Origin: an uncultured Gemmiger sp.
GTDB taxonomy: Bacteria > Bacillota > Clostridia > Oscillospirales > Ruminococcaceae
NCBI GenBank assembly: GCA_944382835.1
Contig: CALWNP010000014.1
Coordinates: 1 to 60,375, forward strand
Direction of reading: 5' to 3'
DNA length: 60,375 bases
In this document: one piece after another, positions 1 through 53,996 of the stretch
How positions within the stretch are numbered: position 1 is the stretch's first letter
Layout of the letters: each line of letters starts with the position of its first letter
Position numbers and translations under genes: made by a program
Notes under the pieces: model-generated
The model's database searches: none
Told to the model about the DNA's origin: nothing
What the model saw: the letters and a program-made list of their open reading frames with translations, nothing else

Positions 1-564
1 ACCCTGGCCTACATGAACGCCGAAACGCTGGCGCTGACCATCGCCGAGGGCCGCACCGTCTTTTACAGCCGCAGCCGGCAGGAAATCTGGCGCAAGGGCG
101 AGACCAGCGGCAACATCCAGCGGGTGGTCTCCATCACCGCCGACTGCGACAAGGACGCCCTGGTGGTGGATGTGGTCAAGGCAGGCCCGGCCTGCCACAC
201 CGGCGCCGAAAGCTGCTTCTTCAACCCGGTCTATGTCAGTGACGAACTCAAGCAGTTCACCTGGCAGGGGCTCTATGAGCTGATCAAGGGCCGCAAGACC
301 AACCCCAAGGAGGGCAGCTACACCAGCTACCTCTTTGACAAGGGGCTGGAAAAGATCCTGAAGAAGGTGGGCGAGGAGTGCACCGAGGTGATCATCGCCG
401 GCGGCAAACGGGACAAGGAAGAGACCATCTTTGAGATCAGCGATCTGGCCTACCATGTGATGGTGCTGATGATTGAGCTGGGCATCTCGGTGGAGGACAT
501 CACCCGTGAACTGGAAAAGCGGCATGTGATCGATCACAAAGTAAAGCAGGAGAGGATGCAATAA
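1..564 (+). CDS. hisIE: Bifunctional phosphoribosyl-AMP cyclohydrolase / phosphoribosyl-ATP pyrophosphatase (5' end cut by window)
   Basis: This enzyme carries out steps two and three of histidine synthesis in the cytoplasm: hydrolysis of PR-ATP to PR-AMP and opening of the PR-AMP ring. The reading frame is open from base 1, so the N-terminus lies outside the window and the first ATG at 13 is internal. The HisI half shows [25 protein letters not shown] and ESCFF, which hold the three zinc cysteines. The HisE half starts near residue 95 and shows the acidic helix [12 protein letters not shown]. The stop overlaps the next ATG by one base (TAATG), so translation is probably coupled to the histidinol-phosphatase, and the window opens inside a his operon. 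Confidence 0.96.
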
Positions 565-1391
565 TGGCAGGCGAATATATGCGCAGTTCCGTCCACGTTC
601 ATTCCAAGCTGTGTGACGGCAAAAACTCGTTGGAGGAGATGGCGGTGCTGGCCTGGCGCGCGGGGCTGCAGACCCTGGGCTTTTCGGGCCACAGCCATAC
701 CCCCTGCGACCTGGAATACTGCATGAGCCCGGCGCGCACCGCCCAGTACAAGGGCGAGATCGCCAAGCTGAAAAAGCAGTATGAAGGCAAGATGGACATT
801 CTCTACGGGCTGGAGTGGGATCTGTTCAGCGACGACGATCCCACCGCCTACGATTACTTCATCGGCAGTGTCCACTATGTCCGCGGCCCCAAGACCGGCC
901 GGTATTATGAGATCGACTGGCGGGAAGCGGACCTGGCGGCCTGCATCCGGGATGATTTTGACGGCGACGGCCTGGCGGTGGTGGAAGCCTACTTTGCCAA
1001 CGTGGCCAAGGTGGCGGAAAAGCACCCCACCATCCTGGGGCATTTTGATCTGATCAAAAAGATCAACGCCGGCAACAAGTTCTTTGACGAGAGCGACCCG
1101 CGGTATGCAGCGGCGGCTTCCTCCGCCCTGATGGTGGCGGCCCGCAACCGCTGCGTGCTGGAGGTGAACACCTCCTCGGTCTACCGTGGGTTCCGGGAGG
1201 ATTTCTACCCCTCCGAGGCCATCCTGAAGGAGTGGCTGGCCCTGTCGGGCAACGTGGTCATCACCGCCGATGTCCACGACGCCAAGGCGCTGACCTTCGG
1301 CTACGAGGAGGCTGCCGCCCAGCTGAAGGCCCTTGGGTATTCCAAGGTCCTTGTCCTGGGGAAGGGCGGGTTTAGTTCTTGCCCCCTGTGA
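564..1391 (+). CDS. hisJ: Histidinol-phosphatase, PHP family (HisJ/HisK type)
   Basis: It dephosphorylates histidinol phosphate, the penultimate step of histidine synthesis. The 275-residue protein has the PHP metal-binding series in order: HVHSKLCDG near residue 11, SGHSHTP, GLEWD, GSVHYV, GHFDLIKK, EVNTSS and ADVHDA. Length fits the family. ATG 564 overlaps the hisIE stop; ATG 579 (MRSSVHVH) is an alternative start. The C-terminus is odd: after the expected YSKVLVLGKGGF it runs on as SSCPL, and the stop codon lies in the loop of a CCCCC/GGGGG hairpin at the edge of the downstream repeat. The final residues may therefore come from the repeat. PHP family is certain; the substrate is inferred from the operon. 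Confidence 0.93.
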   Translation: MAGEYMRSSVHVHSKLCDGKNSLEEMAVLAWRAGLQTLGFSGHSHTPCDLEYCMSPARTAQYKGEIAKLKKQYEGKMDILYGLEWDLFSDDDPTAYDYFIGSVHYVRGPKTGRYYEIDWREADLAACIRDDFDGDGLAVVEAYFANVAKVAEKHPTILGHFDLIKKINAGNKFFDESDPRYAAAASSALMVAARNRCVLEVNTSSVYRGFREDFYPSEAILKEWLALSGNVVITADVHDAKALTFGYEEAAAQLKALGYSKVLVLGKGGFSSCPL

Positions 1392-1511
1392 GGGGGTGGG
1401 TGACGGCTGCTTGCCGTTAGGCCCGACGGGGACCGTAGGCTTCTCGCTGTCGTTGTCGGGGTGGACCACTCCGAGGACGGCATTCTTCCGAAAGCGTTCC
1501 TTTTTTGTAAC

Positions 1512-1640
1512 CGTGGTAAGGTAGTGTTTGTGCTTACCATACAGTTCCGCGCGAGACGCGGAACACCCATTTCGGAACCAACGCTGCGCGTTGGTTTGTG
1601 CATCGCGCTATGCGCGATTGCGCAGCATAGCTGCGCAGGC
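1512..1640. repeat. Insertion of packed small hairpins inside copy A
   Basis: This stretch interrupts H1 of the left unit and is absent from the matching place in copy B. It is almost entirely short inverted repeats: 1514-1539 (TGGTAAG/CTTACCA), 1544-1564 (GTTCCGCG/CGCGGAAC), 1576-1596 (AACCAACGC/GCGTTGGTT), 1602-1618 (ATCGCGC/GCGCGAT) and 1620-1636 (GCGCAG/CTGCGC). It carries no open frame of note. It looks like a nested hairpin array inserted into, or grown within, the larger element. Confidence 0.75.
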
Positions 1641-1875
1641 ACAAAAGGTTCCACCGTTTCGAGGCGGTGGACGCCCGACCAGGGTTTTCAACCCTGGACC
1701 CCTCAAAGGGTCCACCGCGGACGGACCCTTTGAGCAAGGAATGGATTAGAGAAAGGGCTTCGCCCTTTTCAAACCTTCTCTATTACTCACCACCTACGGA
1801 GGCTCCTCCGGGTACGGAATCCAAACCTAAAGGAAGGGTTTTAGAAAACACTTCCATTGTCTTCATCACAAATCA

Positions 1876-1928
1876 AAAAGCCAGAAACAACCGAGAGGCA
1901 ACACGCCTATCCATTGTTTCTGGCTTTT
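1876..1928. repeat. Conserved central hairpin of copy A
   Basis: A 15-bp perfect stem (1876-1890 with 1914-1928) encloses a 23-nt loop. The loop carries a smaller AGGC/GCCT stem around AACAC. Stem core and loop are identical to the centre of copy B at 13893-13943, while flanking sequence differs, so this is the most conserved part of the element. Confidence 0.82.
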
Positions 1929-2205
1929 GTTTTATAGAGAAGGATTATCAAGGGCGGATGCCCTTGATTTTTAAAAAGGTTTTCCTTGCTTTTTGGGTCT
2001 GTCTTTAGGCAGGCCCAAAAAGGAGTCCAGGGCGTTAGCCCTGGTCGTGCGTCCACCGCCTCGAAACCGGTGGGACTTTTTCGGTTCCTTTTTGGTCACA
2101 AAAAGGAACGCTTTCCGGCAGCAGCCGGTTTCGTGGAGGTCATCGACCTCCAAAAGGCACAGGGCCAACGGTCCCCGCCGGGCCCCGCGGCAGCCCGCCG
2201 CCCCC

Positions 2206-3276
2206 TCAGAGGTAGCTGGGCTCCTCCCTGCGATGCCCCACCAACTCGGGGTGATCCAGCACCGCTCCGGCCCCCAGGGCCACACAGTCCAGCGGCGCTT
2301 CGGCGATGTGCACCTCGATGCCGGTCTCGTTCTGGATCAGGGTGTCCAGCCCCCGCAGCAGGGCGCCGCCGCCCGACAGCATGATCCCCCGGTCGATGAT
2401 GTCGCTGGACAGCTCCGGCGGGGTACGCTCCAGGGTGTCCTTGATGGCCTCCACAATCCGCAGCAGGCTCTCGCTCATCGCCTCCCGGACCTCCTCCGAC
2501 CTGATCAGAATGTCCTTGGGCAGGCCGTCCACCAGGTTGCGGCCCTTGATCTCCATGGTGGTCTCGGGGTCCTGGGGACAGGCCGAGCCAATCTCAATCT
2601 TGATCTGCTCGGCGGTGCGCTCCCCCACCAGCAGATTATACTTGCGCTTGATGAAGCTGATGATGCTCTGGTCCAGGGTGTCGCCGGCGCAGCGGACGCT
2701 GTGGCTGGCCACAATCCCCGACAGGCTGATCACCGCCACCTCCGCGGTGCCGCCGCCGATGTCCACAATCATGCTGCCCACCGGCTCGGTGGTGGGCAGG
2801 CCCGCCCCGATGGCCGCCGCCATGGGCTCCTCAATCACCGTCACCTGGCGGGCCCCCGCCTTGGCGGCCGCCTGGCGTACCGCCCGGCGTTCCACCTCGG
2901 TCACCCCCGACGGCACACAGATCACCACCCGGGGCCGGGCAAAGGGACTGTTGCCGCAGGCCTGCCGGATGAAACTCTGCAGCATCGCCGCCGTGATGTC
3001 AAAGTCCGCGATGACCCCGTCCTTCAGCGGCCGCACCGCTACAATGGAACCCGGCGCCCGGCCGATCACCGCCTTGGCTTCATGCCCCACACTGCGCACC
3101 CGCAGCTCGTCGGTCTTGGTGTCCACCGCGACAACGCTGGGCTCCCGCATGATGATGCCGCGCCCCTTCATGTAGACCAGGGTGTTGGCGGTGCCCAGGT
3201 CGATGCCGATGTCCTTTGTAAACATATTGCGTAGTCCCTCACTGATCCGTGAAAACAGTCTTGCAAACCAATTCAT
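2206..3276 (-). CDS. mreB: Rod shape-determining protein MreB (actin homologue)
   Basis: MreB forms membrane-bound filaments that direct lateral cell-wall synthesis. The actin-fold nucleotide motifs are present: GIDLGTANTLVY near residue 25, VDIGGGTAEVAVI, and SGGGALLRGLDTL near the C-terminus. I chose the ATG at 3276, which has AAAGGAG about 12 bases upstream. It gives 356 residues with the N-terminal extension MNWFARLFSRISEGLRN, an amphipathic helix that would anchor the filament to the membrane; starting at 3225 (MFTKDIG) would lose it. The gene is last in a minus-strand run zapA, U32, dut, maf, mreB. mreC and mreD are not adjacent. The stop abuts repeat copy A. Confidence 0.96.
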   Translation of the reverse strand: MNWFARLFSRISEGLRNMFTKDIGIDLGTANTLVYMKGRGIIMREPSVVAVDTKTDELRVRSVGHEAKAVIGRAPGSIVAVRPLKDGVIADFDITAAMLQSFIRQACGNSPFARPRVVICVPSGVTEVERRAVRQAAAKAGARQVTVIEEPMAAAIGAGLPTTEPVGSMIVDIGGGTAEVAVISLSGIVASHSVRCAGDTLDQSIISFIKRKYNLLVGERTAEQIKIEIGSACPQDPETTMEIKGRNLVDGLPKDILIRSEEVREAMSESLLRIVEAIKDTLERTPPELSSDIIDRGIMLSGGGALLRGLDTLIQNETGIEVHIAEAPLDCVALGAGAVLDHPELVGHRREEPSYL

Positions 3277-12248: not shown

Positions 12249-13529
12249 ATGGAGGAAATCACACTGGATTTTGGCCGCACCGCCCAGCCTGAGGAGGCTG
12301 GCCCCTGCAAGGTGGTGCTGCTCTCGCTGGACCTGGGCAAGTTTGACGCCGAGCGCAGCCTCCAGGAGCTGGCCGCCCTGGCCGAGGCCAACGGCATGGA
12401 GGCGGTGGCCTCGGTGAGCCAGAAGCGCAGCGCCCCCGAAGCCGCCACCATGCTGGGAGAAGGCAAGGTGGATGAGGCGCGGATGGTCTGCCAGAACACC
12501 GGCGCCGAGGCCGCCATCTTTGACGGGGAGCTCACCGGCAGCCAGATCCGCAACCTGAGCGCGGCGCTGCAGGTGGAGGTGCTGGACCGGACCATGCTGA
12601 TTCTGGAGATCTTCCGGGCCCGGGCCACCACCAACGAGGGCAAGCTCCAGACCGAGCTGGCCCTGCTGCGGTATCAGCTGCCCCGGCTCCAGGGCCTGGG
12701 CGAGAGCCTGAGCCGCCAGGGCGGCGGCGGTGGAGGCGGCGGCGGTGCCCGCCGCGGCGCCGGCGAGACCAAGCTGGAACTGGACCGGCGGCATCTCCAC
12801 CACCGGATCGAGCATCTGGAGGGCAAGCTGAAGGAGCTGGAAAAGCGCCGTGGCGAGACCCGCCGTGCCCGCCAGAAAAACGGCGCCCCGGTGGTGGCGC
12901 TGGTGGGCTACACCAACGTGGGCAAGAGCAGCCTGATGAACGCCCTGTGCGGCGCCCAGATCTTTGAGGCGGACATGCTCTTTGCCACTCTGGACCCTAC
13001 CGCCCGCAAGCTGGTGCTGCCCAGTGGCCTGCAGGTGATCCTGGTGGACACCGTCGGCTTTGTGAGCCGGCTGCCCCATCATCTGGTGGAGGCCTTCAAG
13101 AGCACCCTGGAGGAAGCGGCCTTTGCCGATGTGATCCTCAAGGTGGCGGACGCCAGCGACCCCCAGGCCGCCGAGCAGCTGGCGGTCACCGACGAGGTGC
13201 TGGATTCGCTGCAGTGCGGCGAGATTCCCCAGGTGGTGGTCTACAACAAATGCGACAAGGGCCCCCTGACGGCCTTTGATCCCGCGGTGCTGCTGACCAG
13301 CGCCAAGACCGGCCGGGGTCTGCCGCAGCTGCTGGCCCGGCTGGATGAGATCCTGGCCCATCGCATCCGGGCCATCGAGGTGCTGCTGCCCTACGACAAG
13401 CTGGCGCTGGCGGACATTCTGCGCACCCGGGGGAATGTGGAAACCGAAGAGTATCGGGAGGACGGGGTCTATTACAAGGCTACTGTCAAGATTGACGATC
13501 TGCACCGGTTTGAAGCGTTTTTGATTTGA
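12249..13529 (+). CDS. hflX: GTPase HflX
   Basis: HflX binds stalled or hibernating 70S ribosomes and splits them, notably after heat stress. The 426-residue protein has the HflX N-terminal domain, a coiled-coil segment (ELDRRHLHHRIEHLEGKLKELE) and a GTPase domain with GYTNVGKSSLM near residue 219, DTVGFVSRLPH and NKCD. A run of nine glycines sits near residue 158 in the loop that is glycine-rich throughout the family but usually shorter. ATG 12249 has AAAGGAG six bases upstream; TTG 12243 is less likely. The stop abuts repeat copy B. Confidence 0.96.
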   Translation: MEEITLDFGRTAQPEEAGPCKVVLLSLDLGKFDAERSLQELAALAEANGMEAVASVSQKRSAPEAATMLGEGKVDEARMVCQNTGAEAAIFDGELTGSQIRNLSAALQVEVLDRTMLILEIFRARATTNEGKLQTELALLRYQLPRLQGLGESLSRQGGGGGGGGGARRGAGETKLELDRRHLHHRIEHLEGKLKELEKRRGETRRARQKNGAPVVALVGYTNVGKSSLMNALCGAQIFEADMLFATLDPTARKLVLPSGLQVILVDTVGFVSRLPHHLVEAFKSTLEEAAFADVILKVADASDPQAAEQLAVTDEVLDSLQCGEIPQVVVYNKCDKGPLTAFDPAVLLTSAKTGRGLPQLLARLDEILAHRIRAIEVLLPYDKLALADILRTRGNVETEEYREDGVYYKATVKIDDLHRFEAFLI

Positions 13530-14242
13530 CGGTAAGCGGCTGCTTTCCGCTAGGCCCGTCGGGGGATGGATGTTTCTCGCTGGGGTTGTCGAGGTGGACC
13601 ACCCCGAGGGCGGCATCCTTCCGAAAGCGTTCCTTTTTTGTAACCAAAAAAGGAACCGAAAAAAGTTCCACCGTTTCGAGGCGGTGGACGCCCGACCAGG
13701 GTCTTTGACCCTGGACCCCTTTTGGCCCCCACCGCGGACGGGGGCCAAAAGCAAGGAACGGATTAGAGAAAGGGCTTCGCCCTTTTCAAACCTTCTCTAT
13801 GACTCACCACCTACGGAGGCTCCTCCGTCACCGGAATCCAAACCTAGAGGAAGGGTTTTAGAAAAACTTCCGAAAACGCTAACACAAAAAGATAAGCCAG
13901 AAACAACCGAGAGGCAACACGCCTATCCATTGTTTCTGGCTTATTTGTTTTTTATAGAGAAGGATTATCAAGGGCGAAGCCCTTGATTTTCAATCCATAC
14001 CTTGCTCAAGGCCCCCGTCAGGGGTGGGGGCCTTGAGGAGTCCAGGGCTTACAGCCCTGGCCGTGCGTCCACCGCATCGGAACGGTGGGACTTTTTCGGT
14101 TCCTTTTTGGTCACAAAAAGGAACGCCTTCGGGGGAGGACCGTCTTCGGGGTGGTCCACCCCGAACCCGGAAGAGAGAAACATCCGTCCCCCGCCGGGCC
14201 TCCCGGCCAGCACCCGTCTCCCGGGAACCCCGGAAGAAAGAA
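13530..14242. repeat. Tandem-hairpin palindromic intergenic element, copy B (convergent hflX/SPFH)
   Basis: The 713-bp gap holds no gene and is a near-complete palindrome. Left unit: H0 13535-13551, H1 13629-13656, H2 13668-13687, H3 13696-13714, H4 13720-13750 and H5 13769-13786. Mirrored right unit: H5 13967-13987, H4 14005-14037, H3 14042-14060, H2 14069-14088 and H1 14099-14124. The right tip up to about 14205 still matches the inverted left tip. Stems differ between units with both sides changed: H4 is TTTTGG/CCAAAA on the left but CTCAAGG/CCTTGAG on the right. The central hairpin is 13893-13943. This is the cleanest copy in the window. Confidence 0.9.
13893..13943. repeat. Conserved central hairpin of copy B
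   Basis: A 14-bp perfect stem (13893-13906 with 13930-13943) encloses a 23-nt loop with an inner AGGC/GCCT stem. Stem core and loop are identical to copy A at 1876-1928. Such identity inside otherwise drifting sequence suggests selection or recent copying. Confidence 0.82.
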
Positions 14243-15136
14243 TTACTTCCCGGCCCCTCCGGCGATCTCCTGGATCGCCGTCACCGTAGACGCAAGATTC
14301 TGCATCTCAGAAGGAACAATGATCTTGGTGGCCTTGCCGTCCGCCACCTTCTCCATCGCCTCCATGCTCCGCAGGGCCAGCATGGCCTGGCTGGGGGCAG
14401 CTTCGTTGATCAGTCGGATGGCGTCGGCATGGGCCTTCTGCACCATCAGCAGGGCCTGGGCTTCGCCCTCGGCCTCCCGGATCCGCTGCTGCTTCACCGC
14501 TTCGGCCCGCAGGATGGCACTTTCCTTCTCGCCCTCGGCCCGGGTGATGGCGGCCTGCTTTTCGCCCTCCGCCAACAGGATGTTGGCGCGCTTCTCCCGG
14601 TCGGCCTTCATCTGCTTTTCCATGGCGGCCCGGATCTCCTCCGGCGGCTCAATGTTCTTCAGCTCGATCCGGTTCACCTTGATGCCCCAGCGGTCGGTGG
14701 CCTCGTCCAGGGTGGCGGTGATCTTGGTGTTGATCAGATCCCGGCTGGTCAGGGTCTCGTCCAGGCTCATACTGCCGATGATGTCCCGCAGGGTGGTGGC
14801 GCTGAGATTCTCGATGGCCTGGATGGGACGGTTCACGCCGTAGGCATAGGCCTTGGCGTCAAACACCTGGAAAAAGACCACCGTGTCGATCATCATGGTG
14901 ACGTTGTCGCGGGTGATGACCGGCTGGGGCGGGAAGTCCGCGACCTCCTCCTTGAGGGAGACCCGGCGGGCCACCCGCTCCACAAAGGGGGTGCGCAGAT
15001 GCAGCCCGGCGCCCCAGGTGTCCTTGTAGACCCCCAGCCACTCGGTGACATAGGCGTTGGACTGGGGCACGATGACAATGCACCGCACCAGGATGATCAG
15101 GATGACCAGAAGCAGGATGCCAATGACAATCAACAT
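14243..15136 (-). CDS. SPFH/band 7 (stomatin-like) membrane protein
   Basis: SPFH proteins form ring-shaped assemblies in membrane microdomains and influence membrane protein quality control. One N-terminal membrane segment (MLIVIGILLLVILIILVRCI) is followed by the band 7 domain (VPQSNAYVTEWLGVYKDT, then NVTMMIDTVVFFQVFDA) and an alanine/glutamate-rich coiled coil (residues 190-260). ATG 15136 has GGAG eight bases upstream and gives 297 residues; the longer frame to 15232 has no ribosome site. The NfeD-like gene lies 61 bp upstream, the usual pairing for this family. The gene ends at repeat copy B. Confidence 0.93.
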   Translation of the reverse strand: MLIVIGILLLVILIILVRCIVIVPQSNAYVTEWLGVYKDTWGAGLHLRTPFVERVARRVSLKEEVADFPPQPVITRDNVTMMIDTVVFFQVFDAKAYAYGVNRPIQAIENLSATTLRDIIGSMSLDETLTSRDLINTKITATLDEATDRWGIKVNRIELKNIEPPEEIRAAMEKQMKADREKRANILLAEGEKQAAITRAEGEKESAILRAEAVKQQRIREAEGEAQALLMVQKAHADAIRLINEAAPSQAMLALRSMEAMEKVADGKATKIIVPSEMQNLASTVTAIQEIAGGAGK

Positions 15137-50191: not shown

Positions 50192-52027
50192 ATGCGTAGA
50201 CTTTCCATTGACACCCCCGACCGCGCCCAGCAGGTGGTCCAGGACCTGTGCCGGGACATGGGGCATCGGGTGGCCGCCAACCCGCCGGGGCTCTGCCCGG
50301 TGGACCTGGCGCTGAACTTTCTGCGGCTCTGCCATGCCCAGACCTGCGGCAAATGTGTGCCCTGCCGCATCGGGCTTTCCCAGCTGGAAACCCTCATTGA
50401 GAGCGTTCTGGACCAGACCGCCGACGAGGGGACCATTGATCTCATCGAATCCACCGCCGCCGCCATCGCCGATTCTGCCGACTGCGCCATCGGCTACGAG
50501 GCGGCGGCCATGGTGCTGGAAGGAGTGCGGGGCTTCCGGGAGGATTACGAGCTCCACGCCAGGGAGGGGCGGTGCATCTGCTCCCTCAAACAGCCGGTGC
50601 CCTGCGTCACCGTCTGCCCCGCCCATGTGGACATCCCCGGCTACATTGCCCTGATCCGGGAAGGCCGGTTCCAGGATGCGGTGGACCTGATCCGCAAGGA
50701 CAACCCCTTCCCGTACTCCTGCGCCTATGTCTGCGAGCACCCCTGCGAGAAGCAGTGCCGCCGCCGTCTGGTGGACGACGCCATCAACATCTGCGGCCTC
50801 AAACGGTACGCGGTGGATCACTGCGGCGAGGAACCGGCCCCCCCGGCGGCCCCGGCCACCGGCAAGCGGGTGGCAGTGGTGGGCGGCGGGCCCAGCGGCC
50901 TGACCGCGGCCTACTACCTCTGCCGGATGGGCCATAGCGTCACCCTCTTTGAGCAGCGGGACCGTCTGGGCGGCATGCTGCGCTACGGCATCCCCGACTA
51001 CCGCCTGCCCCCCGAGGTGCTGGACCGGGACATCGACTACATCCTCAAGACCGGGGTGGAGGTCAAGACCGGGGTCTGCATCGGGTCGGACATCCAGGTG
51101 GCTGACCTGCAGCGGGACTATGACGCCCTCTATGTGGCCATCGGCGCCCACGCCGACAAAAAGCTGGGCCTTCCCGGGGAGGACAGCGCCAACGTCCTCT
51201 CGGCGGTGGAGTTTCTGCGCAACTGCGGCGAGGGCCACGCCCCCGACTTCACCGGCAAGCGGGTGGTGGTCATCGGCGGCGGCAACGTGAGCATGGACGC
51301 CACCCGCACCTCCATCCGTCTGGGGGCCGAGAGTGTGACCTGTGTCTACCGCCGCCGCATCGACGACATGACCGCCCTGCCCGAGGAGATCGAGGACGCC
51401 TTGGCCGAGGGCTGCCAGATCCTGCCTCTGGAGGCCCCCGACCACATCGAGGCCGACAGCGAGGGTAAGGTGGCGGCCCTCTGGACCCGGCCCCAGATCA
51501 TCGGCGGCTACGGCCGGGACGGCCGGCCCGGTCCCCGGGACGCCGCCCAGCGCAAATTCCGCATCCCCTGCGATTATCTCATCATCGCCATCGGCCAGCG
51601 CATCGAGAGCGACAACTTTGAAAAGGGTGGCATCGAGACCAGCCGCGGCGCCCTCAAGGCCGATCTCAGCGGCTATGTACCCGGCACCCCCAACGTCTTT
51701 GCCGGGGGCGACGCGGTCACCGGCCCCGCCACCGTCATCCGGGCGGTGGCCGCCGGTAAGGTGGGCGCTGCCAACATCGACAGCTTTCTGGGCTTTGACC
51801 ATGTGATCACCTGCGATGTGCAGATTCCCCCGGCCAAGCTCTCCAACATCCCGCCCTGCGGTCGGATTCAGCTCAAGAGCCGCAACCCGTTGGAAGCCCG
51901 GCGGGACTTCAAGCTGGCCAGCTGCGGCATGTCGGAGGAGGAGGCCATGCAGGAGGCCAGCCGCTGCCTGCGCTGTGACCACTTCGGCTACGGCATCTTC
52001 AAGGGAGGGAGAACGACACAATGGTAA
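50192..52027 (+). CDS. GltD/NfnB-like FAD oxidoreductase with N-terminal NuoF-type iron-sulfur domain (hydrogenase partner)
   Basis: It is predicted to pass electrons between NAD(P)H and the hydrogenase encoded next. The 611-residue protein has an N-terminal NuoF-like cluster domain (CGKCVPCRIGL, C52/C55/C58, with a later cysteine in SADCAIGYEAA). A GltD-type iron-sulfur region follows (CEHPCEKQCRR), then FAD and NAD(P) Rossmann motifs (GGGPSGLTAAYYLCRMG; GGGNVSMDATRTSIRLG). It ends with SRCLRCDHFGYG. ATG 50192 follows CGGAGGA. It overlaps the hydrogenase gene by seven bases. The domain order differs from canonical HydB. Confidence 0.86.
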   Translation: MRRLSIDTPDRAQQVVQDLCRDMGHRVAANPPGLCPVDLALNFLRLCHAQTCGKCVPCRIGLSQLETLIESVLDQTADEGTIDLIESTAAAIADSADCAIGYEAAAMVLEGVRGFREDYELHAREGRCICSLKQPVPCVTVCPAHVDIPGYIALIREGRFQDAVDLIRKDNPFPYSCAYVCEHPCEKQCRRRLVDDAINICGLKRYAVDHCGEEPAPPAAPATGKRVAVVGGGPSGLTAAYYLCRMGHSVTLFEQRDRLGGMLRYGIPDYRLPPEVLDRDIDYILKTGVEVKTGVCIGSDIQVADLQRDYDALYVAIGAHADKKLGLPGEDSANVLSAVEFLRNCGEGHAPDFTGKRVVVIGGGNVSMDATRTSIRLGAESVTCVYRRRIDDMTALPEEIEDALAEGCQILPLEAPDHIEADSEGKVAALWTRPQIIGGYGRDGRPGPRDAAQRKFRIPCDYLIIAIGQRIESDNFEKGGIETSRGALKADLSGYVPGTPNVFAGGDAVTGPATVIRAVAAGKVGAANIDSFLGFDHVITCDVQIPPAKLSNIPPCGRIQLKSRNPLEARRDFKLASCGMSEEEAMQEASRCLRCDHFGYGIFKGGRTTQW

Positions 52028-53775
52028 ACGTCACCGTCAACGGCAAGGCCGTCCAGGTCCCCGAGCAGACCACTATCCTGGAGGCGGCGCGTCTGGCCGG
52101 GGTGGAGATCCCCCACCTGTGCTATCTGAAACATCTCAACGAGATCGGCGCCTGCCGGGTCTGCTGCGTCGAGATCGAGGGGGAGCGCAACCTGGTCCCC
52201 AGCTGCAACAACCCGGTGTTTGAGGGCATGGTCATCCGCACCAACTCCGACCGGGTCCGCCGCACCCGGCGGATCAATGTGGAGCTGATCCTCTCCCAGC
52301 ACGACTGCCACTGTGCCACCTGTCTGCGCAGCGGCAACTGCCATCTGCAAAGCATCGCCAACGACCTGGGCATCCTGGAAAACCCCTATCCCCGGGACCT
52401 GGTCACCGGGGTGCGGGCTCTCTGGCCCAGGGACTTCCCCCTCTACCGGGATACCAACAAGTGCATCAAGTGCATGCGCTGCATCCAAGTCTGCGACAAG
52501 GTCCAGGGGGTCAACGTCTGGGACCTGTCGGGCACCGGCAGCCGCACCCGGGTGGATGTGAGCCACAACCGCCGGATCAAGGAGTCCGACTGTGTCCTCT
52601 GCGGCCAGTGCATCACCCACTGCCCGGTGGGCGCCCTGCGGGAGCGCAGCGACACCGAAAAGGCCTTTGACGCCATCGCCGATCCCCACCGCATCACGGT
52701 GGTGCAGATCGCCCCGGCGGTGCGGGCGGCCTGGGGGGAAAGCCTGGGCCTGGGTCCCGAAAAGGCCACCGTCAACCGGATGGCGGCCACTCTGCGGGCG
52801 CTGGGCTTTGACTACATCTTTGACACCTCCTTCTCTGCCGACCTGACCATCATGGAGGAGGGCACCGAGTTCCTCCACCGTTTCCGCGCCGGGGAAACCC
52901 GGGAGCTGCCCATGTTCACCAGCTGCTGCCCCGGCTGGGTGCGGTATCTCAAGGGGCACTATCCCCGGCTGGTGGACCGGCTCTCCACAGCCAAAAGCCC
53001 CCAGCAGATGTTCGGCGCCGTGACCAAGAACCACTTTGCCAAGGTGCTGGGGGTGGAGCCGGAGCGGCTCTACTGCGTCTCCATCATGCCCTGTGTGGCC
53101 AAAAAGGCCGAGTGTGACCTGCCCACCATGCGCACCGACGCGGGCCAGGATGTGGACCTCTGTCTGACCACCCGGGAATTGGTGCGAATGATCCGCTCCG
53201 AGCGGCTCCACCCCGAGACCCTGCCCGAGGAAGCCTTCGACGCCCCCATGGGCCCCTACAGCGGGGCGGGGGTGCTCTTCGGCACCACCGGCGGGGTGAT
53301 GGAGGCGGCGCTGCGCAGCGCCTACTATCTCACCGAGGGGCACAACCCCCCGGCGGACGCCTTCCGGGCGGTGCAGGGGGATGCCACCGGGGCCGAGGGC
53401 TGGACCGAAGCCGAGTTCACCCTGGAGAGCCAGCCGGTGCGCACCGCGGTGGTCAGCGGACTGGCCAACACCCGCAAACTCATCGAGGCGATCCTGACCC
53501 ACAAGGTCCATTACGATTTCGTGGAGGTCATGGCCTGTCCCGGCGGCTGTGCCGGCGGCGGGGGACAGCCCCAGAGCCGGGACGACGAGGAGCTGGCCGA
53601 CAGCCGCGGCGCGGTGCTGCGCGCCCTGGACAAGGGCAGCGCCCTGCGGTTCAGCCACGAAAACCCGGCGGTGCAGGCTCTCTACCGGGAGGAGCTGGGC
53701 GAGCCGGGCAGCGAGGCGGCCGAGGCCTGGCTGCATACTGACCATGCGGGGTGGAAGATGCCGGGGGAGGCGTGA
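52021..53775 (+). CDS. [FeFe] hydrogenase catalytic subunit (HydA-type)
   Basis: It evolves or oxidises H2 at the H-cluster. The 584-residue protein has, in order, a plant-type [2Fe-2S] domain (GACRVCCVEIEG), a His-Cys cluster domain (HDCHCATCLRSGNC), two [4Fe-4S] motifs (CIKCMRCIQVC; CVLCGQCITHCPVG) and the H-cluster motifs TSCCPGW, MPCVAKKAE and MACPGGCAGGGGQP. The C-terminal small-subunit-like region follows. This modular form accepts electrons from a flavoprotein partner, here the overlapping upstream gene. The maturases HydE, HydF and HydG are not in the window. Repeat copy C begins right after the stop. Confidence 0.96.
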   Translation: MVNVTVNGKAVQVPEQTTILEAARLAGVEIPHLCYLKHLNEIGACRVCCVEIEGERNLVPSCNNPVFEGMVIRTNSDRVRRTRRINVELILSQHDCHCATCLRSGNCHLQSIANDLGILENPYPRDLVTGVRALWPRDFPLYRDTNKCIKCMRCIQVCDKVQGVNVWDLSGTGSRTRVDVSHNRRIKESDCVLCGQCITHCPVGALRERSDTEKAFDAIADPHRITVVQIAPAVRAAWGESLGLGPEKATVNRMAATLRALGFDYIFDTSFSADLTIMEEGTEFLHRFRAGETRELPMFTSCCPGWVRYLKGHYPRLVDRLSTAKSPQQMFGAVTKNHFAKVLGVEPERLYCVSIMPCVAKKAECDLPTMRTDAGQDVDLCLTTRELVRMIRSERLHPETLPEEAFDAPMGPYSGAGVLFGTTGGVMEAALRSAYYLTEGHNPPADAFRAVQGDATGAEGWTEAEFTLESQPVRTAVVSGLANTRKLIEAILTHKVHYDFVEVMACPGGCAGGGGQPQSRDDEELADSRGAVLRALDKGSALRFSHENPAVQALYREELGEPGSEAAEAWLHTDHAGWKMPGEA

Positions 53776-53996
53776 GGGTTTGTTTCGGGCTTGCCCGAAA
53801 ACGGGCTGCCCCCGAAGGGTTGTTCCTTTTTGTGACCAAAAAGGAACCGAAAAAGTCCCACCGTTTCGAGGCGGTGGACGCTCGACCAGGGTCTTTGACC
53901 CTGGACCCCTCAAGGCCCCCACCCTTGACGGGGGCCTTGAGCAAGGTACATTGTTTTAGAGCAAAGGGCATCCGCCCTTTGCAAACCTTCTCTACG
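53776..53996 (+). repeat. Tandem-hairpin element, copy C (single unit after the hydrogenase)
   Basis: One unit in the same direction as the upstream gene: H0 53783-53800 (TTTCGGGC/GCCCGAAA), H1 53822-53847 (GTTCCTTTTTG/CAAAAAGGAAC, loop TGAC), H2 53858-53877 (CCACCG/CGGTGG), H3 53886-53904 (CCAGGGTC/GACCCTGG), H4 53910-53940 (TCAAGGCCCCC/GGGGGCCTTGA) and H5 53961-53982 (GCAAAGGGC/GCCCTTTGC). The unit ends at CCTTCTCTA. Neither the central hairpin nor the mirrored unit is present. The following gene points the same way, unlike at copies A and B. Confidence 0.88.

Follow-up and report, generated by a model that had tools for sequence, protein, structure and literature searches.

The stretch of DNA that we analysed (the window, 60,375 nt) is contig 14 of an uncultured Gemmiger genome of 2.52 Mb in 83 contigs that is 91% complete (G000 below). 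Near its start, a PHP-domain (HisJ-like) gene (564-1391, plus strand, PF02811) converges on mreB (2206-3225, minus strand, PF06723), and between the two lies a double repeat, copy A (1404-2205, found by BLAST and HMM), that begins 12 nt past the hisJ stop and whose beta arm lies 5 nt from the mreB stop. A second double, copy B (13537-14221, found in the same way), lies between hflX (12249-13529, plus strand, PF13167/PF16360), which stops 7 nt before it, and a convergent Band_7/SPFH gene (14243-15136, minus strand, PF01145). Copy C (53770-53995, plus strand, HMM) stands behind an [FeFe] hydrogenase gene (52021-53775, plus strand, PF02906) that overlaps its outer end by 6 nt. The relatives of the hisJ-like gene that carry names, from 25 loci, are mostly Gemmiger.

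A preliminary description of this DNA had reported five structured units here. All five were recovered by our arm HMM (269 positions), and they are copies of one arm of about 268 nt. The five stems are present in the order claimed, and the region folds far better than chance: copy A as DNA gave a fold z of -31.5 and copy B as RNA one of -22.2, with 0 of 20 shuffles equally good in either case. The outermost part of the arm is variable; inward of it come the GTTCC hairpin (S1), the purine linker L3, the CCACCG hairpin (H2) and then H3, H4 and H5. The term 'tandem' is not fully supported, since arms occur singly, as in copy C, or in inverted pairs, copies A and B each being two inverted arms around a shared terminator-like centre. 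The start that had been given, 1392, lies 12 nt outside the repeat, which itself begins at 1404.

In copy A the alpha arm (1404-1790, plus strand, sense to hisJ) is interrupted, with HMM pieces at 1404-1512 and 1641-1787, because its GTTCC stem is split by a second palindromic repeat of about 130 nt (~1513-1640, edges approximate); this nested repeat is absent from doubles of ~680 nt and present in those of ~800 nt. The central hairpin (1876-1928) has 24-nt arms that are 88% complementary and T-rich flanks on both strands. The beta arm follows (1930-2200, minus strand, HMM, sense to mreB), with S1 at 2084-2109, the linker at 2077-2083 mirroring the S1 purine strand, and a GTC at 2074-2076 whose partner GAC lies in the S1 loop (2095-2097); we call this short pairing S2. 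Copy B has an uninterrupted alpha arm (13537-13804, plus strand, sense to hflX, HMM positions 1-267 of 269), in which a 12-bp S1 (13629-13656, with the S2 5' strand AAC at 13642-13644) is followed by the linker CGAAAAAA (13657-13664), the S2 3' strand GTT (13665-13667), H2 with its CCACCG stem and T(TTCG)A cap (13668-13687), which on the opposite strand reads as a GC hairpin and then a T-run, and H3 with its CCAGGG stem (13696-13714). Its centre (13805-13949) holds a terminator-like hairpin, and its beta arm (13950-14216, minus strand, HMM, sense to the Band_7 gene) has S1 at 14099-14124, the linker at 14092-14098 and S2 pairing 14110-14112 with 14089-14091. The corresponding parts of copy C are S1 at 53822-53847, the linker at 53848-53854 and S2 pairing 53834-53836 with 53855-53857.

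Copy A as a DNA query found 145 matches within the genome. Across the window and the stretches fetched around further copies, the HMM found 68 arm pieces in 40 clusters, fragments included, the clusters being inverted doubles of ~680 nt or, with an insertion, ~800 nt, solo arms of about 210-260 nt, short palindromes of the outer ends and fragments at contig ends. Seven contigs of this genome (C2, C60, C62, C66, C71, C72 and C73) end inside the element, so these counts probably understate the number of copies, and some junctions are uncertain. The doubles enclose a centre between two unlike arms, one of alpha and one of beta type. Among regions with exactly two pieces, 24 of 27 were inward-facing inverted pairs, none faced outward and 3 had both pieces on one strand. 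The central hairpin was retained in 15 of 17 aligned centres, and aligned ends start with CGG(C/G)(T/A)G in most copies, REP palindromes having a GTAG or CGTC tag at one end. Three fully read relatives (L009, L010 and L014) carry a similar inward-facing double with another centre, which holds a further repeat of CCTCCCCTTGCACAGGGGAGGC-like palindromes. The nested repeat (~80-130 nt, with hairpins TTTCGGAACCAACGC and GCGCGATTGCGCAGC) was also seen in S1 of alpha arms at L011, L013 and L017, and a block resembling it sits inside H3 of an arm in G010 (L126, near 2225); it may thus be mobile on its own.

The preliminary description had taken paired changes in the stems as a sign that the fold is kept. 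Those changes are real, but within this genome most of them come from a small set of hairpin alleles in new combinations from copy to copy. An H3 or H4 state could be recognised in 51 arms, of which 47 carry all three inner stems, and one of the four incomplete arms is cut by a contig end and shows half an H4 state. With states listed by hand from the arm alignment, the 47 complete arms have 4 states of H3 (CCAGGG), 5 of H4 (variable) and 6 of H5 (AGGGC) in 17 combinations, so that much of the paired change is allele reshuffling and independent events are far fewer than copies. The support from comparison across species is stronger. We aligned 20 distinct arms, picked so that S1 and the loop have the same length in all. 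Of their 400 pair cells, 98.5% were paired; 54 had changed at both partners and none at just one, whereas a sliding-partner control reached at most 55.5% paired and 5 two-sided cells. In a wider model alignment (90 distinct rows, H3 counts left out), G-U cells were almost absent from S1 and H2, and a purely RNA fold is therefore not fully supported. The H2 loop is T(TNCG)A, varying mainly at N.

The strongest covariation across species lies in a pairing that had been overlooked, between the final bases of the S1 loop and the bases just past the linker. Through it, the GTTCC stem and the linker that follows form a predicted H-type pseudoknot. In alignment A4, S2 was 95% paired with 18 two-sided cells, and 0 of 500 shuffles reached either value; taken alone, its count of pairs with two-sided change and its count of pair types were not above shuffles. 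Of 45 distinct units, drawn from 27 genomes and including some found by a script demanding a 4-nt mirror match, 41 had at least three contiguous S2 pairs; 2000 shuffles gave 8.5 such units on average and never more than 18. Among 44 units drawn from the model hits, four of them poor, 37 also followed the rule (null maximum 15). Misfits were the L125/L126 type, L127 (two of three S2 pairs in A4), L119 and weak model hits in G258, G044, G142 and G101.

Furthermore, the purine linker is a mirror image of the S1 purine strand. The mirror run averaged 5.9 nt in the 45 distinct units (shuffled mean 4.4, maximum 4.96) and 5.75 in the 44 model-hit units (null maximum 4.86). In 34 of 45 units the parallel register gave a longer run than the antiparallel one; the difference was two bases in 10 of these units (from G005, G008, G012, G016, G045 and G219) and one base in 24. 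The two registers were equal in another 10; antiparallel pairing of linker and stem was rejected, as it gave the longer run in only 1 of 45 units, a mis-anchored one. Longer stems go with longer linkers (rho 0.69, among related rows for which a p-value is not meaningful). Runs were 6-8 nt in most units and 4-5 in some, a triplex motif being defined by at least six triads and loops of 1-6 nt. Below the triads S1 usually goes on for another 4-5 bp, which the linker would have to span with few bases; since the linker is usually ~4 nt shorter than S1, a complete triplex next to a complete S1 would be strained. On the opposite strand, we infer, a pyrimidine-motif pseudoknot is conceivable. At L017, L081, L084, L087 and L090 we saw another type of hairpin, palindromic through TGCA (CCTACTTTCTT...AAGAAAGTAGG), followed by a purine linker that also mirrors its stem.

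A third purine strand in mirror register is the mark of the class II purine-motif intrastrand triplex, described for E. coli BoxC/TMECO in the accessible part of PMC4666352, which cites Hoyne 2000 as the original paper on PIT elements. Like the motifs of that class (PIT elements, BoxC and TMECO; same source), the arm runs from a pyrimidine strand through a loop and a purine strand to a third purine strand, and both are intergenic, occur in many copies and in two sequence types as inverted repeats, and swing widely in copy number between relatives. The arm is not a TMECO, since its tracts are A/T-rich and the TMECO consensus is G/C-rich (PMC4666352, as above). It also has a covarying S2 helix that clamps the third strand, whereas the word 'pseudoknot' is absent from the main text of that paper; unlike those motifs, its S1-L3-S2 module is embedded in a 268-nt arm with H2-H5. 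In addition, arms are enriched at convergent 3' ends, whereas TMECO is described there as lacking strand bias and lying more often upstream of ORFs. By its sequence, then, the stem-linker module is of class II triplex order, A/T-rich and with an added pairing clasp, the triplex itself being predicted. Such motifs are reported in the same part of PMC4666352 to be abundant in bacteria, with their function unsettled.

The preliminary description had called the element undescribed. This stands in that no named family matched, and is qualified by the class II order of the stem and linker noted above. Rfam gave no match at gathering cut-offs in the 60-kb window. Known RNA families were rejected, as copy B had 7 sub-threshold Rfam hits, the one of lowest E-value scoring 19.2 bits against a cut-off of 37.8, and 14 relative loci gave 7 hits at permissive thresholds, all under the cut-off. 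Among the matches listed from the open-licence literature, none was a prior description of these Gemmiger repeats. Of 35 Gemmiger genomes, G000 included, 30 matched a model of the arm core; matches per genome ran from 0 to 74, some of them on the opposite strand, and were weak in G044, G047 and G048 (E 1e-5 to 1e-4). The core occurs in species-specific variants. At the family level 14 of 247 genomes matched, 4 of them Gemmiger, and at the order level 11 of 295, G000 counted; many matches outside the genus were weak, and low-scoring matches in fetched loci were often the opposite strand of S1. The repeat is a genus-wide, multi-copy, modular palindromic repeat of Gemmiger.

Arms are enriched at the 3' ends of genes and are not confined to them. 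In stretches selected for holding arms, with genes called by a small codon-usage finder, regions between convergent genes made up 14 of 29 arm-bearing regions and 12 of 83 without arms in this genome (p = 5.6e-4), and 13 of 50 and 1 of 24, respectively, in other genomes. Divergent regions accounted for 2 of 29 arm-bearing regions here and 6 of 50 elsewhere. Tandem regions held sense arms only in 20 cases, antisense arms only in 8 and both in 16; arm by arm, 65 of 102 were sense, in a count that missed alpha arms and took one arm twice. Many arms sit outer end first, shortly past a stop codon. The claim of a structured repeat with covarying stems at gene 3' ends is backed by more copies, by relatives and by its absence from Rfam. 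Both covariation and further copies, either of which might have been lacking, were found, and the earlier interpretation as a whole is partly supported.

Individual loci differed in whether they carry the element. The region 3' of gyrB held an arm in 6 of 28 loci (in one, on the opposite strand only), and that of the Band_7 gene in 2 of 30, two of the 30 being anchored on the wrong gene. In six relatives (L177, L182, L184, L185, L186 and L188), where the hflX/Band_7 pair was identified through a C-terminal motif, a spacer of 56-100 nt holds one terminator-like hairpin and no double; the remaining relatives have different neighbours at that place. The double of G000 occupies the place of the relatives' ordinary terminator-like hairpin. 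At hisJ, 0 of 25 other loci had mreB adjacent; mreB was present in 1 of 25, 2 kb off, and some loci end soon past hisJ. A conserved location of the arm was rejected, as the own-species HMM, which may miss diverged arms, found none in these 25 loci. The hisJ-mreB junction in the flanks of copy A is a possible rearrangement joint.

From its shape and place, the arm is most likely a spreading 3'-end boundary module, a reading that leads the others and that we hold tentatively. A polymerase leaving one gene would halt at the shared central hairpin; one that escapes would meet H2 and the linker of the opposite arm as a second terminator, and the neighbouring gene would be spared polymerase entry from behind. 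The folded arm might add a structural barrier, with the pseudoknot as a lock, and new copies would come from recombination, or from copying, into intergenic regions at gene 3' ends. Several features are consistent with such a module. Among solo arms in sense orientation, 5 of the 10 with downstream sequence have a terminator-like hairpin past the inner end, judged by eye. H2 was found in 71 of 86 distinct cores, and its opposite strand has the shape of a GC hairpin and T-run, averaging 4.5 T within at most 10 nt, where the sense strand averages 0.3. Other observations count against the module, among them the arms in divergent regions and the arm-by-arm share of sense arms given above. The T-run is short, 37 of the 71 reaching 5 T in 10, and a terminator scan of copy B flagged the opposite-strand H2 in both arms and left the central hairpin unflagged, with 7 sites against a shuffled mean of 2.2. 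Bidirectional intrinsic terminators of 50-100 nt occur between convergent genes. The doubles resemble them in location and in their central hairpin, and occupy the place of such a hairpin at hflX/Band_7; they differ in measuring 680-800 nt and having two conserved arms. An earlier study, cited in the accessible part of PMC4666352, found no terminator activity in E. coli triplex-motif repeats. Nor does the boundary model account for the linker mirroring its stem.

Nearly as likely is a selfish, non-autonomous palindromic DNA element, whose hairpins and class II triplex or pseudoknot on single-stranded DNA would be recognised by a mobilising enzyme or replication fork, gene 3' ends being tolerated targets. 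The swing from 0 to 74 matches among the 35 genus genomes, the species-specific variants, the patchy gyrB and Band_7 loci and the hisJ/mreB pairing found in none of the other hisJ loci fit such an element, and the lack of one-sided changes in the 400 pair cells points to DNA. So does the statement in the accessible part of PMC4666352 that this linker order does not form a triplex in RNA. REP sequences mobilised by RAYTs (PMC3733652, as far as accessible) are likewise extragenic palindromes, single or in inverted pairs, with species-specific expansion; the arm is several times longer than the REP palindrome of 20-40 nt. For the enzyme, the Y1 transposase profile PF01797 was positive in 19 of 35 genus genomes, and the RAYT of G006 in 17 of 35, with no match to either in G000 at its 91% completeness. 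For G000, and likewise for the arm-bearing G012, G042 and G046, where none was found either, mobilisation by RAYT/Y1 was set aside on this ground. Several arm-rich relatives (G005, G009, G010, G015 and G050) do have Y1 genes, so such mobilisation may still act in the genus. MITEs share with the doubles their terminal inverted repeats, here in the 24 of 27 two-piece regions that are inverted pairs, their shortness and their intergenic place, but solo arms are common and no parent transposon was identified. Moreover, 22 flank pairs, several of them incomplete, showed no consistent or common target duplication by eye, the doubles have only 680-800 nt, and a selfish element does not predict the convergent bias.

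RNA stability, one of three roles first proposed, is possible and less favoured, while the other two, a barrier to transcription where genes converge and a mobile palindromic element, remain live. It is unlikely that the arm is a 3'-UTR RNA element in which a pseudoknot, with an A-rich linker in the S1 minor groove like that of CptI RNA, and hairpins block 3'-to-5' exonucleases and stabilise mRNA. Most solos are sense and lie behind stop codons, and the H2 cap varies mainly at N, which we take to be the pattern of RNA UNCG loops. A one-base first loop and a long A-rich loop are also shared with CptI RNA (accessible part of PMC4627078). Against this, G-U pairs are nearly absent, 8 of 28 tandem regions with one orientation are antisense, and an A-minor contact, by our inference, is not expected to demand G opposite C-G pairs.

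Highly improbable is that the arms have no function, the palindromes being kept perfect by gene conversion and by template switching at hairpins, which would mimic compensatory change; whole-hairpin alleles reassorted in 17 combinations and the lack of one-sided changes would suit this, but template switching yields inverted repeats and not a linker mirroring its stem, with a longer parallel run in 34 of 45 units, and would not yield the same module order across genera. That the arms are orphan relatives of type III antitoxin pseudoknots titrating a toxin RNase is hardly credible: they resemble CptI/ToxI RNA (PMC4627078, in the part accessible) in the H-type pseudoknot, a very short first loop of one base and a long A-rich loop against S1, but they form no tandem processing array, their linker mirrors S1, and the toxin PF13958 was found in 0 of 35 genus genomes, the control genomes being silent too.

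A wider proposal goes beyond the boundary module, namely that the arms represent an unnamed class of 3'-end elements, in Gemmiger and some related genera, that is defined by a pseudoknot with a purine linker selected for its mirror match (a clamped triplex), spreads by displacing ordinary terminators and insulates convergent genes; this we consider doubtful. Stem, linker and loop that change together across many species are a natural data set for testing selection on a fold. In this common gut genus, loci with and without the element, such as hflX/Band_7 and gyrB, also allow a test of what it does to the limits of transcription and to change in the genome.

Two minor observations concern the region of gyrB. 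In several Gemmiger genomes, including G006, G014, G020, G021, G044, G048 and G050, a RAYT-like gene lies directly downstream of gyrB; the G006 protein scored 62 bits against NF047646, under the cut-off of 80, and gyrA comes next after the RAYT-like gene in the three loci read (L135, L138 and L144). In G000 itself, six clusters lie within 17 kb (contig C33, L026, 311-17391) around dnaA, a recF-like gene, gyrB and gyrA; TMECO in E. coli K-12 is described in the accessible part of PMC4666352 as denser on the origin side.
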